Origin: Pirellulaceae bacterium
Lineage (GTDB): Bacteria; Planctomycetota; Planctomycetia; Pirellulales; Pirellulaceae
NCBI GenBank assembly: GCA_020852965.1
Contig: JADYZV010000101.1
Coordinates: forward strand, 1-64,000
Length of the DNA stretch: 64,000 nt
Direction: 5' to 3'
A model generated the notes under the pieces. That model saw only the letters and a list, made by a program, of their open reading frames with translations. It was not told the origin of the DNA and did not search any database. Below are positions 21,219 to 50,400 of the stretch, one piece after another; positions within the stretch are counted from its first letter, which is position 1, and the number at the start of each line of letters is the position of its first letter. A program made the translations under genes and the position numbers.

Positions 21219-21362
21219 ATGTGGCTCGACGCTCCGCGTCGTGAGTTCTACTAGCTCCTCCGACGGCGGAGCGTCGGGCCACATTATAAATGCAAACACC
21301 GACGGCGGAGCGTCGGGCCGCAGTAAATCTACAGACACCGACGCGGAGCGTCGGGCCACATT
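21219..21362. repeat. REP-like cluster of four copies
   Basis: One reverse copy (21219-21242) is followed by three forward copies (21260-21285, 21299-21324, 21338-21362). Cores are CCGACGCGGAGCGTCGG or the variant CCGACGGCGGAGCGTCGG, each with a GCC(A/G)CA tail. The opposed first pair can form a large hairpin. The cluster ends just before the BlaI-like promoter. Confidence 0.95.
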
Positions 21363-24800: not shown

Positions 24801-26222
24801 ATGGATACGAACGGCGATTTGTTGGCCAACACCAAAATGCGACTAAGCATTGATATTGTGTTCCCAGATCTTCTGAGCACGCAGTTAGAAACTCGCGACT
24901 TTGTGACCGATGGGCAAGGCCGCTTCGAACTCGCAGGGATGTGCCGAGGGGCCGAATACAAGCTATGGCGCATCGTCGACAAGGATGGTGATGGGCAGCC
25001 TGATTCCTGGAATCTTATTGTTGCAATCACACCTCAAGCGAACCGGATGGAACTTGGTGACGTGCGCGTGGTCCCGCCGCAGCAACGCTTGGGTAGTGCA
25101 ACTCCGTCAGAGCTAGCTGCCAAAGCATTTGAATCCGACGAACCACTCCAGCGGAGATACACGTCTCTGAGCCAGCAAGCGCGCCAGTCGAAGCAGCAAA
25201 TGTTAATCATCGCTGGGTCACCGACCAGTCAGACTGCAAGCAACTTATATGTAGTCCTTTCAAGCCGCGATGTGCAACGTGTACTGGCCAGCTATCGACA
25301 GTTGCCCATCGATATCTCCGGAAAAGACAAAGCACTCAATCGCAAGTTTCTACAAACCCTCGTGGGACGCGAGATCGATGTGGATGCTACCGAATTGTTT
25401 GTGCTAAACGACGGTCTGCAAGTCGTCGCGACAACCAGCGTCGCACAATTGCAGTCGGGTACCAACTCGCTGCAGCAAGCCCTGGTTGACTTTGCCGAAC
25501 AACATGAAACCACAGTGCCGCGTACGATGACGATTCTTGTAACCGATGAGACGGGTAAGCCACTAGCGGGCGCAGACGTGTTTCGCAATCACGTCTTTGA
25601 GTTCGAAAAAGACAAAGCACACATTGAGAATCAACACTACCCGAGCGATGCCAGTGGGAAAGCGCTGGTGACACTGTCGGGGACTAGCGTTGATCTGCGA
25701 TTGTGGGTGACGCTGGATGGCTATGTACCGCTACATGCCATGTGGGCCAAGAAGTTCCATAGCGATGGCGATAAAATACCCGACCAGTTTACATTCACAA
25801 TGCAGTCTGGGACCGAAATTGGTGGGATGGTGGTGGATGAAGCAGGTGCGCCCATCGCAGGTGCGATCGTGGAAGTCCAAGAACCGGCAGTCGGAGGGTT
25901 GGCGTTTGGCGTTGGACGCGACCAACCAGGTATTCGTCCTGTACGGAACCACTATTTAGCAGAAGGTGAGACGGCACTCATTACCGATGTCAACGGTCGA
26001 TGGACGCTGCGCAATGTTCCCAGCGATTCGCAACTCGATGCGCCGGAGTTGTTGCCACTGCAGCAAGGCCCGAAGTTGGCTTTACGAGTGACACTTCCCG
26101 GCCAGGAGAAGGACGAGCGAGGTTACGGTCGCTTGCAGCGCGAGCAAGGCATCTCGCACGCCTCCCTCCGCGACAAATCGGCTAAGTTTGTCGTCTCTTC
26201 GAAGGCTCAAGATTCCAAGTAG
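21831..26222 (+). CDS. BlaR1-like M56 membrane peptidase with CnaB-like repeats
   Basis: A 1463-residue protein. The N-terminal ~390 residues are a BlaR1/MecR1-type zinc peptidase: transmembrane segments near 12-32, 45-64, 157-177 and 372-393, the zinc motif HELAH (262-266) and a probable third ligand Glu303 in EREAACDD. In BlaR1 the extracellular C-terminus is a penicillin sensor. Here it is replaced by about 1000 residues of carboxypeptidase-regulatory/CnaB-like beta-sandwich repeats, for example FRGRVVFADARPAGGARVR, VLVSGHVHHANGSPAAGISV and EIGGMVVDEAGAPIAGAIVEV. These probably bind a ligand outside the membrane and signal inward to cleave the co-encoded BlaI-type repressor. A thioredoxin-like segment may lie near residues 1100-1220 but lacks a CxxC. 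The gene is followed by a repeat cluster. Confidence 0.88.
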   Translation: MSSRLEWVAEFVVRLGIGSTLLLLTGLLAMAVCRRQSASLRYWIGTWTALALLLLPLAAAALPCWQLGWLDVGRQDVQHENSGQPTVHLDFSEPTIVPPQGFAEDRLISQLGVSRLDKPPAAITSNSTLHLNTSDADVRNQQSPGESPSHELSASQFIAGSSIILFLLIFYALGLGVGLWQLSFAHYAVAQWIRTARAELPPWILQIAEDCRSAMGLSRELSVRLSGRVAVPVVAGMLRPTILLPESAVHWPVERVRAAVAHELAHIERGDLWTQLLSQLVQCIYWPQPLIYCWSRGLCIEREAACDDRVLACDPRPTQYARHLLDVAAELTGRGRAQPAALAMARGTHVERRIAAILSSSCRRAPPARIMLSAMCAGAIIGTLIVASFSPFTALKGQEIDDAKVSAPSTSNEKKLHTFRGRVVFADARPAGGARVRSADAGEDYPSVSTVADANGDYVLALPARNFHPPLIAEMDGELGFAQIAVDAKLHNSSAGLSVDAITLKAAKRIVVEVVDQAQTPVSDAVIYVQAVHGVVERLQTDVLGTATVAYPDGLSLQVIGAVRSRVGCDYRMFESPYGNVDKSHPSQLPQGFEGQVRLVLDGVREATVRVVGPDESPVQGQRFNLWLINRPDRGGQWSLPSGAEFAVETDEHGMARFDMIPHDQMVGIGIWPRLKRTDWFVIGNVGEEYAYINWEKGDTATVHIGKKVLVSGHVHHANGSPAAGISVRAAGGFEYTGRWKETTQSDELGHWEMLVKPNGYYLFVVQNEQFAAQPYAGVIIRDNNLPANLDFALEPSRKVFGRVSGPIGEKTYVMLQQTAADYYELPEKDRLPNSDNGNRGVSAFTQDSVHVAKDGTFEFNVGPGDYTIWSPDKKTQKFSITDELEKEFNFALPRALRGVFTLRAVEANNAARPIANATVVAFGTEDIYRGHLDGVTGLDGTMQVERALVDMLLLAKSSDEQLAGIAKVSADAQESTVHLAPTTSARGRLMDTNGDLLANTKMRLSIDIVFPDLLSTQLETRDFVTDGQGRFELAGMCRGAEYKLWRIVDKDGDGQPDSWNLIVAITPQANRMELGDVRVVPPQQRLGSATPSELAAKAFESDEPLQRRYTSLSQQARQSKQQMLIIAGSPTSQTASNLYVVLSSRDVQRVLASYRQLPIDISGKDKALNRKFLQTLVGREIDVDATELFVLNDGLQVVATTSVAQLQSGTNSLQQALVDFAEQHETTVPRTMTILVTDETGKPLAGADVFRNHVFEFEKDKAHIENQHYPSDASGKALVTLSGTSVDLRLWVTLDGYVPLHAMWAKKFHSDGDKIPDQFTFTMQSGTEIGGMVVDEAGAPIAGAIVEVQEPAVGGLAFGVGRDQPGIRPVRNHYLAEGETALITDVNGRWTLRNVPSDSQLDAPELLPLQQGPKLALRVTLPGQEKDERGYGRLQREQGISHASLRDKSAKFVVSSKAQDSK

Positions 26223-26250
26223 TGAAATTCCTTTATAATAAGTCCTCTAT

Positions 26251-26345
26251 AATGTGGCTCGACGCTCCGCGTCGTGGGGACGGGGCACAGCGCCGCGGAG
26301 CGTCGAGCCACATTAAAACACCGACGCGGAGCGTCGGGCCACATT
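26251..26345. repeat. REP-like cluster of three copies before the RAYT fragments
   Basis: A reverse copy (26251-26274) opposes a slightly degenerate forward copy (26291-26314, CGCCGCGGAGCGTCG) and a canonical forward copy (26321-26345). The last copy immediately precedes the leader of the first RAYT fragment. Confidence 0.95.
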
Positions 26346-26375
26346 GAACAATTTCATAACAGTGGGAGCATCACT

Positions 26376-26652
26376 ATGGATGACTTCGTCTCGTTTGGAG
26401 TTTTCGACAAAGCGGCAAATGTCGACATAGATCGACGCTTTCTTCCTCACTGGTTTCAGCCCGGCGTCGCAACGTTCATTACGTTTCGTACTGCCGATTC
26501 CATGCCGCGCGAAGTGGTCGAGAAATGGAGAGCAGAATTGCGAGCGTGGCTGGGTAGACGTGGCGTAGTGTTGCGAACAGACGAAAAGCTGCCAACTGTT
26601 GAGCAGTTGCAAAGGCGAATTGATGGGGGGAGAGAGTTTCTTGGGAGAGAAT
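26376..26652 (+). pseudogene. RAYT transposase N-terminal fragment, copy 1
   Basis: From the ATG at 26376 the frame reads MDDFVSFGVFDKAANVDIDRRFLPHW then GVATFITFRTADSMPREVVEKWR and LRAWLGRRGVVL. This is the conserved N-terminal part of planctomycete REP-associated tyrosine transposases. Homology fades after VEQLQRRID, where the frame runs into a repeat copy at 26653. The HUH motif and catalytic tyrosine, which lie further downstream in intact members, are missing, so no active enzyme can result. The leader (AACAATTTCATAACAGTGGG and onward) follows directly on a REP-like copy. The frame remains open through the second fragment to 26921. Confidence 0.8.
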
Positions 26653-26717
26653 CCGACGGCGGAGCGTCGGGCTACAATAAAACCCAAAACACCGACGGCG
26701 GAGCGTCGGGCCACATT
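26653..26717 (+). repeat. Two REP-like copies between the RAYT fragments
   Basis: Forward copies at 26653-26678 (tail altered to GGCTACAATA) and 26692-26717 (canonical tail). The second sits at the same distance from the following ATG as copy 26321-26345 does from its own. Confidence 0.95.
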
Positions 26718-26747
26718 AGACAATTGCATAACAGTGGGAGCATCACT

Positions 26748-26921
26748 ATGGATGACTTCGTCTCGTTTGGAGTTTTCGGCAATGCGGCAGATGTCGACAT
26801 AGATCGACGCTTTCTTCCTCACTGGTTTCAGCCCGGCGTCGCAACGTTCATCACGTTTCGTATAGCCGACTCCATACCGCGCGAAGTGGTCGAAAAATGG
26901 AGAGCAGAATTCAGCGTGTAG
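26748..26921 (+). pseudogene. RAYT transposase N-terminal fragment, copy 2
   Basis: This is a second copy of the same leader and N-terminus (MDDFVSFGVFGNAADVDIDR...GVATFITFRIADSIPREVVEKW), roughly 90 percent identical to copy 1 by eye, with several synonymous differences. Homology ends at about 26910 (AGAGCAGAATT), and the frame stops at 26921. The break coincides with the stop codon of the sigma factor gene on the other strand (26911-26913), so the fragment abuts and probably supplied that gene's end. The catalytic part is absent. Confidence 0.8.
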
Positions 26922-27483
26922 CATCGCGAAGTTTGTCTGTTCCGCGGCGCAGGAGACCTGCGATCGAGTCTACCGTGCGGTCGCTCAGGCGAGCGATCTC
27001 GGTAACGGTTTTACCTTCGAGATAATACCAGGTCATGACTTGTCGCATGTCGCTTGGGAGTCGAGCTAAACGCTCCAAAATACGTGCAACCTCTTCAGTA
27101 CGCTGAGCCGCTTGACTGGGAGGCGTGTGGTCGGAGGCGAAACTCTGACAAGACCCGACTGTCCCTGACGGCTGGTTAGGACTCCCCGAGTACTCGCGGC
27201 GAATGTCTCTGCGCGCTGTAAAGAAGCGTTTTCTCTGATCACTCAATACGCGGGTGAGAATTCGCCGCAACCAGTTGCGGACTACCAATGGTTCCTCGAT
27301 GGCTCGCAGTTGCCCCAAACCCAGATAGGCCTTAACCATGGCTTCTTGAACGATATCGTCGGCGTCGAGCTTGGTTCGCAATTGCCGATCCAATCGCGAC
27401 TCAGCCATACGCAGTAAGCTCGGGCGGTAGGCTTCAATTCGGCCGATTCCGCCCTGGTGCGGGCGTTGCTTTTTTACATGCAT
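26911..27483 (-). CDS. ECF-type RNA polymerase sigma factor
   Basis: A sigma factor of about 190 residues. Region 2 is seen in RPSLLRMAESRLDRQLRTKLDADDIVQEAMVKAY and WLRRILTRVLSDQRKR. Region 4 is seen in LERLARLPSDMRQVMTWYYLEGKTVTEIARL followed by SDRTVDSIAGLLRRG. The ATG at 27483, with AGGCGAGAG upstream, is preferred over 27516, which adds 11 unconserved residues. It is divergent from the Ser/Thr kinase-WD40 gene beginning at 27797, a variant of the common planctomycete sigma/kinase pairing. Its stop codon is at the junction with a truncated RAYT fragment, so the C-terminus may have lost or gained a few residues. Confidence 0.87.
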   Translation of the reverse strand: MHVKKQRPHQGGIGRIEAYRPSLLRMAESRLDRQLRTKLDADDIVQEAMVKAYLGLGQLRAIEEPLVVRNWLRRILTRVLSDQRKRFFTARRDIRREYSGSPNQPSGTVGSCQSFASDHTPPSQAAQRTEEVARILERLARLPSDMRQVMTWYYLEGKTVTEIARLSDRTVDSIAGLLRRGTDKLRDATR

Positions 27484-27796
27484 TTTGGCTCTCGCCTGTA
27501 ATGGAGAGTGTTGCAACTAGTGCTTGGTCAAAGTGAAAAACGGGGCTAACACCTGTTTGAGAGTTTGACAGCTCACGAGCGTACTACTTTCTTCAGAAAA
27601 CAATTACGAAAGCTAATTTTGCGGTTGTGTGGGACAAGGCGGGCGCAAAAACAACTACAATGGCTTTCACGCGGTGAAAGGTTCATGGAGCCGATAGTCT
27701 GGCGCGACTCGCGGGCCTCGTCCACTACCATCAACCCTAAGTCTAAACATTGACAGACCAGTAGTTGTATCTTAATCATTAGTGTGGATCATTCTG
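27484..27796. other. Divergent intergenic region, sigma factor/kinase
   Basis: About 310 bases. It should contain promoters for both genes, but none is clear. A dispersed repeat lies at 27716-27767. Short frames here are not convincing genes. Confidence 0.4.
27716..27767. repeat. CCTCGTCCACTACC / AACCCTAAG dispersed repeat
   Basis: CCTCGTCCACTACC followed by TCAACCCTAAGTCTAAAC and ending CAGTAGTTG. Diverged relative of 41281-41348 and 35639-35692. Confidence 0.55.
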
Positions 27797-36125: not shown

Positions 36126-36223
36126 CCGACGGCGGAGCGTCGGCCTACATTAATGCGAATACCGACGACGGAGCGTCGGGCCACATTGGTGCGAATTCCG
36201 ACGACGGAGCGTCGGGCCACATT
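36126..36223 (+). repeat. REP-like cluster of three forward copies
   Basis: Copies at 36126-36151, 36162-36187 and 36198-36223, with cores CCGACGGCGGAGCGTCGG and CCGACGACGGAGCGTCGG. They lie 60-160 bases upstream of the amidohydrolase start codon. Confidence 0.95.
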
Positions 36224-47479: not shown

Positions 47480-50400
47480 ATGAATCATAGACCACGAAAA
47501 AAACTTGGTAACGCGACATTTCTGTGGCAGTTCGCAGTACTCGGACTAATGGCATTTCCGTCGATGGCGCAAGAGGACGAGGGGAATACGAGTAACGCAG
47601 GGGAGCAGGAACCGACTGCGGAGCGTCGGGCCACATTAGAACCAAATACCGACGCGGAGCGTCGGGCCACATTAAAGCAGTCTGAAGGTACTAGGACGAT
47701 TATCCTTGAGACGCGTAGCGAGATACCTGAGCCAGCGGTCTTTTTTACGGCTAGTGTGCATGGCAGCGCGCGTGTGGGTTTGGAACACGTCGAGCAAGTT
47801 GTCGAGCTAGAGGTGAAAGTCTTTCAAGGCAAAGCCGAGACGCTGAGCTTGGGCTTGAGCGGCGATGGAGATGTTACCAATGTGCAAGACGACAATCTTC
47901 GATCCTGGTCGGTGCGCAGGCAAGGGACCAAGCGATTCCTCGAGCTACATTTGAAGGCAGGCGTTAACGAACTAAAACCCGAGATCACGCTTCGCTCGCC
48001 CAAATTGACTTTACCTACAACCTTCAATTTGACGCATCTGGCTCCTGGGGAAGCGGTGGGATTCGACTCGATCGTGAGTCTCGAATACGCACCGGAAGTC
48101 GAGGGGAAAGTCAGCATTGCCGAGGGATTTGTGCCACTGAGCACTGCCGGGCGCACGGTTCGCTTTCAAACTGCCAGCGGAGGTCAGCTCCAACTCTCGC
48201 TCCATCGCAACGGAGCATTGCCTGCCGCAGTGGAGCTGGTCGATACAACTTTAGTTGGCAATGCGCATACCGATAGCGATTCGATTCACTTTCAACTGAC
48301 GGGGCAGGTTCGTGTCAGTTCAGCCCATTCGGAAATCACGATCCTCTCCGGCAATGCCGCCGTTCGCCAAATCCCTGTAAACACTGGCATCGGCGCCAAC
48401 TATCGGCTACGACTCGACATCGAAAACGACTTGCCACAATACAAGCTTGTGTTTGCGGAAACGGGTACATTCCCTTTGTCACTCGACTTTGTCGCGCCAC
48501 TGAGAAAGTCCGAAGATGATTCGCACGGCATCGATTTCACCGTTGCCGCCAGCGCTGTCATTCCGTTGACGCTCCAGGGACTCGGCTCCACCTTGGAATT
48601 TCAACGAGACCAGGAGTCGGTCGTGCCGATTCGCGTCGAAGAGGTTTGGCTCGGGTTCTTACCTGCCTCGGGGCGTGCCAAATTGCAGTGGAAAACGGCC
48701 CGGCGAACTGAGGAAGGAAAGCTGTTCTTTACGACTACTGGCCAGGTCGAGGCAAGGCTGGATGTGGGACTGCTACGGCAGGAGCATAGGATCGATTACC
48801 AGGTTCTGCAAGGTGAATTGAAGTCACTCGGCATTCAGCTACATGGCCCAGGGGAAATCCTAGACGTCCAAGGGAAGAACATCGTGGGCTGGAAAGTTAT
48901 CGAGGAAGGAGAAGCTCGCCGATTGGACATCACTCTCAGTCAGCCGATCACGGGTACCAGCCCGATCCACGTGCGCAGTCAAACTCCCTTGGATGCTTTG
49001 CCTGTGCGTATCGAAGGTATGAGATTGAATCCAATCGGGGCCATCCGCCATTCTGGCTACCTGCGGCTGTCGAACTTAGGATCGGTACGACTCGAACCGA
49101 CGAGCTTGGTCGGCCTGGCGCAGTTGGCGCCAGACCAGTTTCCCGGTGAATCGATCGAAGCGCGTCAAGTCTTTGTATACCGTTTTCCCGCTGCCGAGTA
49201 TTCGTTTACCGTGGCTGCAGACCGTATCCAGCCGGAAATCAATATTTCCCAAGTGGTGCTGTACGAGCTGACGGAAACCGATCGAGTGATCAAGGCAGAT
49301 ATTGAACTCGATGTGCGCGAAGCGCCGATTCGCGAGTGGGATCTTGCGATCCCTGCGGACTATTCGGTCGTCTCTGTCACTGGTGCAAGCGTTGCGGATT
49401 ACATCGTGGCTTCGGAGTTCGCTGATGATCTCCGCAACTTGAAGATCATTTTTGGCCAAGACGTATCGGGTCGCCAGTTGGTTGCGTTGCATCTGGAAAA
49501 AAGCGAAACGGCTATTGAAAGTAACTGGATTCTTCCGCGTCTCGAATACCCGGCTGCGAAAGCGGTGCGTGGCGATGTTGGAATTGTGGGCGCAGCCGGT
49601 TTTCGCATTGCAGTCGGAGAGATGGATTTGCTAGTCGAAAAGCCGCTCGCCTATTTTCCCAAACCGGTGGCTAATCTTCAGCAAGCGTTTCGCATGCGTG
49701 AGCCAGGTTGGTCGGCAACGATGTCCATCGAACAGCTCGACCGAAGCGTGCAGGCGGATGTGTACCATTTGATTTCGTTGAGCCAAGGAACTGTGTACGG
49801 CAGCGCGCTAATCAACTTGTTTGTTACCGGTTCACCCGTTTCGGAGTGGAAGATATTCGCCCCCGAGGCGCTGGGCAATGTGCTGGTCGATGGCCAGGAT
49901 GTCCGCACGTGGCATCGAGACGGGGATACGCTCACGGTGACTTTGCATCAACCTGTGATGGGGGCCTACACGCTGCTATTGACTTTCGAAGAAAAACCTG
50001 AAAAAGGGAACAGCACTTTCCAAGTTGGTCAAATTGCACCGCTCGGCGTGCAGAGTGAGCGGGGCTATATTCAGGTTGTCAGCGCGACGCAAGTAGACCT
50101 CAAGACGACTTCGATTTCGCCGGAAATATTGAAGCTCGATCCACTGGAGCTCCCAGCAGAATTTCGCTTGTTGAGTACCACACCTCCACTGGGGACGTGG
50201 CAGTATACGGCGCGCCCTTTGGATCTCAATTTGGAAGTAGATTGGTTCCAGCCAGGGTCGACGTTAGCGCAGATCGTCGAGTTTTCCGAAGCCAACAGCC
50301 GTGTCTCGCAAGATGGTGAATTGGTGACGGACGTTGTTTACTTCGTCAAGTCGCGTGGGGAGCGGACGCTGAAAGTGAAACTTCCCGCTGAGCCGGTGCG

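Follow-up and report, generated by a model that had tools for sequence, protein, structure and literature searches.

The REPtron, a rayt gene flanked by inverted REPs, was described by Nunvar et al. 2010 (PMC2817692), and the linkage and co-evolution of REPs and RAYTs, as well as the loss of RAYTs with REPs left over, are described for Proteobacteria (PMC2817692, PMC3686654, PMC8049555). Orphan REPs remaining after RAYT loss are treated by Nunvar et al. 2013 (PMC3686654), REPINs are reported from E. coli genomes without a RAYT (PMC8049555), and tnpA_REP genes can carry REP insertions without losing their frame (PMC6006769). The PVC superphylum is reported to contain GTAG repeats (PMC3733652). 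A literature search for REP with Pirellula and for RAYT with Planctomycetes returned no description of the REP family analyzed here.

Members of that family precede two truncated RAYT-like frames in a stretch of 64,000 nucleotides from a Pirellulaceae bacterium (hereafter the window). The locus resembles the REPtron as portrayed in PMC2817692 in the GT(A/G)G head and imperfect palindrome of its repeats, in the position of REPs directly at the rayt gene, in the pairing of a RAYT lineage with a REP sequence and in the abundance of the given REP within one genome; it differs in that the gene is represented by two N-terminal fragments, that the inverted REP on the 3' side is missing and that the catalytic half is absent from the assembly. 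As in the orphan families of PMC3686654 and PMC8049555, REPs persist in a genome without their cognate RAYT, but the window retains a REP-headed RAYT fossil and its host is a planctomycete. As in the cases of PMC6006769, REPs lie within RAYT coding sequence and the frame stays open; those described there mostly sit in full genes, in the segment from the HUH to the Tyr motif, whereas in the window they are found at about codon 92 and are followed by a second N-terminus. It is well supported that we are dealing with an ordinary case of the known REP-RAYT partnership, a clean new example from the Planctomycetes with an unusual fossil, and it leaves the understanding of REP and RAYT function unchanged. 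Nevertheless, physical linkage, and not co-occurrence alone, here assigns a large planctomycete hairpin-repeat family to one particular RAYT lineage, and with hundreds of near-identical REPs beside the wreck of their presumed mobiliser the fate of REPs after RAYT loss becomes testable.

Two RAYT fragments in tandem

An earlier reading of this DNA from its letters alone (the sequence-only reading) had described two near-identical units, and a gapless alignment of 198 bp bears this out. The units (26346-26651 and 26718-26915) are offset by 372 bp, i.e. 124 codons, share their frame and show 15 differences (92% identity), three of which fall within the last four bases, at the ragged break-off of unit 2. 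Each comprises two direct 27-bp REP copies, a leader of 30 bases and the first RAYT-like codons, 92 in unit 1 and 56 in the shorter unit 2 (Table 1). The units are REP-headed as had been stated, but by two direct copies per module instead of one, with an additional inverted copy at the far left. According to folding, this inverted copy and the direct copy at 26297 can form a 22-bp stem with the heads outward; the inverted pair (window 26250-26315) is far more stable than its shuffles (z -7.7) and constitutes a REPIN-like element beside the fossil.

Table 1. Features of the locus and its neighbours (window positions)
Feature	Position	Strand	Remarks
Large frame, peptidase-like by eye	ends at 26222		left neighbour of the locus
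REP core, inverted	26251..26268	-	18-base core, 1 mismatch
REP core, first of direct pair ahead of module 1	26297..26314	+	1 mismatch
REP core, second of direct pair ahead of module 1	26328..26345	+	exact; full element from near 26320
Leader 1, 30 bases	26346..26375	+	GGGAG Shine-Dalgarno-like stretch (by eye) 5' of ATG
Module 1, RAYT N-terminus, 92 codons	26376..26651	+	homology to about codon 79-82; without HUH, without Tyr
Joint, module 1 to next REP edge	26652..26660	+	REP consensus starts at CCGACGG, 26654-26655
REP core, first of direct pair ahead of module 2	26661..26678	+	2 mismatches
REP core, second of direct pair ahead of module 2	26700..26717	+	exact
Leader 2, 30 bases	26718..26747	+	aligned to leader 1
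Module 2, RAYT N-terminus, 56 codons	26748..26915	+	family residues D11 and T39 lost
Abrupt right end	26911..26921	.	RAYT homology stops at 3' end of convergent frame
Convergent frame, sigma-factor-like by eye	26911-27516	-	right neighbour of the locus

The few bases that are possibly RAYT-derived (window 26911-26918) include the stop codon of the sigma-factor-like frame, so that a deletion may have trimmed the end of that gene.

The proposed RAYT homology of the N-terminal peptide was recovered with a profile of 24 RAYT-like proteins (full-length, from named records), which finds both fragments in the own genome (E 4.2e-25 and 4.7e-18). In addition, RAYT frames matching module 1 at E<=1e-3 occur in 22 of 59 other genomes (best 3.1e-24). 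Past the homologous part of module 1, codons 83-92 are open frame without matched homology. The curated Pfam and NCBIfam models yield no RAYT match to the fragments alone, and the NCBIfam RAYT model matches three full-length relatives only from residue 103 or later. All three relatives tested are matched by NF047646 (REP_Tyr_transpos), below its cut-off (47.7-53.0 bits vs 80), and two of the three pass Pfam Y1_Tnp, L135 being without a match. The sole solved structure matched by the profile of the relatives is TnpArep (PDB 4er8, 6.6e-5), which also ranks first when the best relative, as modelled by AlphaFold (pLDDT 87), is searched with Foldseek (E 2.7e-5, modest TM 0.39/0.51).

In the full-length relatives the HUH motif corresponds to N138-H139-x-H141 and the tyrosine to Y199, both past the codons kept in the fragments, in agreement with the earlier statement that the two units lack them. 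The model of the best relative places the HUH motif on a predicted strand (139-146) and the tyrosine in a predicted helix (190-206), and the window modules stop before either. Since the HUH motif and the catalytic tyrosine are absent from both fragments, these are, judged by their sequence, remnants of RAYTs and not enzymes.

A 215-aa open frame (26274-26921) spans the two modules as well as the intervening REP pair, and its product could be taken for a functional protein whose two RAYT N-terminal domains bind REPs or disturb a RAYT. The excess of dS (0.121) over dN (0.041) between the modules points the same way; with so few changes, however, these values would neither establish constraint nor exclude it. 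Over the same stretch the opposite strand also has an open run of 203 codons, so little weight attaches to an open frame here. Moreover, two residues conserved in the family, D11 (kept in 24 of 27) and T39 (kept in 26 of 27), are lost in module 2, and module 1 breaks off inside a helix (80-99) predicted for the intact relative. A working protein of this kind is in our view highly improbable. The changes at D11 and T39, together with one at the conserved N15 in module 1, fit decay. Three of the eight codons that differ between the modules are synonymous (two ragged end codons excluded), a proportion that we judge close to the expectation from drift alone; the synonymous differences pointed out earlier do exist, but the argument from them to a coding origin is weak.

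The REP family and its RAYT lineage

A profile of 90 copies delimits the REP as a 27-bp element, the conservation of which falls from 1.00 to 0.50 immediately past ACATT, where the leader starts. On the minus strand of the folded copies GTGG or GTAG precedes a stem of 5-7 bp, so that the family has the GT(A/G)G head and the imperfect palindrome of REPs, with a modest single-copy stability relative to shuffles (z -1.7 to -3.1). The window contains 25 matches at <=3 mismatches vs 0.07 expected, and the own genome contains 483 exact matches to the 18-base REP pattern vs 0 for the reversed pattern, or 525 to a looser core. The first 100 of the 483 listed are spread over many contigs, i.e. the repeat is dispersed and of high copy number. 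In an 855-kb sample of the own genome, for which contigs were picked partly for listed REPs and partly by length, the density is about 137 per Mb; over 19 bases (n=117) 71 copies have no mismatch, 33 have one, ten have two and three have three, and the reversed control pattern finds nothing at <=3 mismatches. More than half of the REP clusters (34/62) lie outside naive ORFs of >=130 aa, in gaps that make up 17% of the sample, and 28 overlap such ORFs, where the naive caller may make spurious frames over repeats.

Across the family Pirellulaceae the core is matched in 24 of 241 genomes (own included). Besides the own genome only six, from one other genus, have >=5 matches (15, 15, 13, 12, 8 and 5), and the two genomes with the closest RAYT are among these six. 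Within the window's genus the 18-base pattern is absent from 13 of the 14 other genomes and has two matches in the remaining one. Among 60 genomes searched, exact REP matches other than those of the own genome number two, both close to the start of a contig (G011:C559:41-107). Two genomes combine core matches with the lack of an intact RAYT hit, namely G119 (15 matches, no RAYT at E<=1e-30) and G117 (eight matches, only a broken RAYT hit); they possibly hold further orphan REP families, and the presence of a cognate RAYT and the number of REPs are not tightly tied in them.

Full-length homologues of the fragments occur in other Planctomycetes. The best relative, L132 (= L046 = L081), comes from an uncultured Pirellula, equals the query and forms the closest pair with L133, a copy that is 97% alike. 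Both carry the REP core on the 5' side, oriented as in the window, at a distance of 29 bases from the first ATG (30 in the window); L132 has further REP copies upstream and an inverted copy just past the stop. An inverted copy begins 3 to 7 bases past the stop in L132, L133, L135 and L139. Going by sequence, the arrangement of L132 and L133 is that of a REPtron; of the inverted REPs on both sides of the gene, which these four loci have, the window keeps the 5' side only.

In total, the core (<=1 mismatch) is found within 400 bp of the RAYT in six of the 27 named loci, all of them among the nine best E-values. The other 21 have no core within 400 bp, many of them showing other hairpins by eye, and a control search of these 21 with the 27-bp element gave a match at <=5 mismatches in one. 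The spacing varies: L134 has REP copies of either orientation, located 46 to 99 bases upstream, in L135 and L139 a copy ends directly at the start codon, and L140 has only an inverted copy, at -86, so the leader length of the window is not common to L134, L135 and L139. The REP of L134 departs from our consensus in three positions out of 26; two of these pair with each other at the stem base and have changed together, so that the stem is kept (pairing by eye). Because L132/L133 and L135/L139 are near-duplicates, the members of the latter pair being near-copies of each other, the six core-flanked loci amount to about four independent cases.

In a maximum-likelihood tree of 30 rows, both window fragments fall into a clade of eight rows (support 100/98), which also holds L137 (without core) together with five RAYTs out of the six flanked by the core; the core-flanked L140 lies outside, and the branching order inside the clade is not firm. 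Shuffling the tree labels gave a value as low in 55 of 500 cases, with 22 ungrouped rows uncounted (the own-genome row plus the 21 full-length relatives that remain), and is hence uninformative. Raw N-terminal identity alone is less telling, as L136 (63%) and L138 (61%), both without a core, score as high as L132 (63%). The core at L132 and L133, and the clade with five of the six core-flanked RAYTs, support the link between the REP family and the lineage of the fragments. REPs are common in this genome (see the density above), so that some could have landed by chance beside an unrelated dead RAYT; that the order, the orientation and the leader length match L132 and L133, with the same core, and that this core is concentrated in the clade of the fragments, make such a coincidence very hard to credit.

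The sequence-only reading had tied the REP family to a RAYT lineage other than that of the gene at 160-786, and this separation holds: the lineage profile lists no match at 160-786 at E<=1, and L132 and L133 carry the same REP core. None of the 11 Y1_Tnp hits in the own genome has a copy of this REP (<=2 mismatches) within 1.2 kb, the flanks of some being cut by contig ends; one of these loci (L005) has a copy about 1.24 kb away. Another, C154:8191 (L012), carries its own GTAG-headed inverted repeats (by eye).

In nine of the 27 planctomycete RAYT loci (L143, L147, L148, L149, L150, L153, L155, L156 and L158) the gene ends in a TAG stop that falls within a GTAG. By eye, this GTAG seems in several of the nine to serve as head of the REP that follows, in which case the end of the gene and the REP head overlap.

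Spread of the REPs and fate of the gene

The sequence-only reading had suggested that the 5' module itself was amplified. This is true locally, as one tandem duplication, but not genome-wide: in 8.37 Mb the leader plus start codon occurs twice, both times in this locus, even at <=3 mismatches. Searches of the own genome with the profile, the leader and the N-terminus yielded none of the further 5'-only modules that had been looked for. In one of the 5'-module searches, in which 40 of 350 candidates were scored, the listed matches were the locus itself and REP stretches only. Because leader plus start occurs only twice and REP conservation ends at the leader, it is the REP alone that spread through the genome, the module having been duplicated once, in tandem. 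Could REP, leader and N-terminus nevertheless be a copied mobile unit? Both copies are REP-headed and the joint between them sits at a REP edge, but there is no third copy (the N-terminus occurs twice, apart from weak matches), the two are adjacent and direct as simple tandem duplication gives, and the conserved part of the REPs stops short of the leader. We consider a mobile module very improbable.

The full-length RAYT of this lineage, the presence of which in the genome had been put forward as a check, was not found: at E<=1 the 24-row profile picks up nothing in the own genome that would be this lineage's catalytic half, and a full-length search gives no match at E<=1e-30 either. The other profile matches are weak, three C-terminal (2.3e-4 to 0.015), two of which coincide with other IS200-like hits, and one N-terminal (0.11). 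Weak matches to the N-terminus are G000:C61 (an exonuclease-like frame by eye) and C152. The assembly measures 8.37 Mb and is 99.5% complete, but its 199 contigs imply that an intact copy could sit in a gap.

Because the REPs, the leader and the N-terminal codons keep the order and orientation of the closest intact relatives, the region can with good confidence be viewed as a degraded REPtron cognate to this REP family. A RAYT-type enzyme probably spread the family; a RAYT, a single-strand HUH/Tyr transposase of putative activity, would have copied the REPs, cutting at the GTRG head of single-stranded hairpins. For the subsequent events we propose an order that is tentative, being read from the joint alone. 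A REP pair would have come to sit at about codon 92 of the rayt gene, unequal recombination between this pair and the 5' pair would have duplicated the segment of REP, leader and N-terminus, and a later deletion may have run from about codon 56 of the second copy into the end of the neighbouring gene, leaving fragments that would now be decaying and a REP family without its enzyme. The new joint indeed sits at a REP edge, and the REPs behind module 1 are direct and at the same time constitute the 5' pair of module 2, whereas the intact L132, L133, L135 and L139 have an inverted REP behind the gene. A search for the orthologous locus by means of the sigma-factor-like frame gave no match in the 14 other genomes of the genus at E<=1e-40, so that the insertion site and the order of events cannot be read from a relative.

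More speculative still, and in our opinion rather doubtful, is the idea that the REP family switched off its own mobiliser, i.e. that a REP inserted into rayt, recombination between REPs destroyed the gene and the burst of copying thereby ended itself. If this were true, the fossil at 26321-26921 would be the record of the self-inactivation of a REP family; a bolder version would have the in-frame double N-terminal remnant kept as a putative REP-related repressor.

As to timing, REPs diverge by about 2.8% from the consensus per copy, or about 5 to 6% between copies (calculated by hand), and the modules differ by 6 to 8%, which hints at a similar age of the duplication and the REP burst if both drift alike; REPs may, however, be constrained. 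The little-decayed REPs fit a recent loss of the RAYT and, equally, a RAYT that is still active and missing from the assembly. In the latter case an intact gene of the lineage would be present in the cell, and the window would hold a dead by-product. Apart from the nearly intact REPs, the gaps left by 199 contigs favor this; the completeness and the lack of any catalytic part in the profile and full-length searches at the thresholds given above argue against it, and we hold it to be unlikely. It disputes only the orphan status of the REP family, not the REP-RAYT link, and the best reading remains a degraded REPtron, duplicated once, whose REP family has lost its enzyme as far as this assembly goes.

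The REPs themselves mostly form direct head-to-tail arrays, commonly with steps of 30-45 bp, including those at window positions 21268-21362, 36134-36223 and 47620-47673. Some tandem REP arrays are described in P. fluorescens (PMC3116915). Among the neighbouring REP pairs at most 120 bp apart in the 855-kb sample, 50 of 55 are direct, five are inverted with the heads outward and none has the heads inward.
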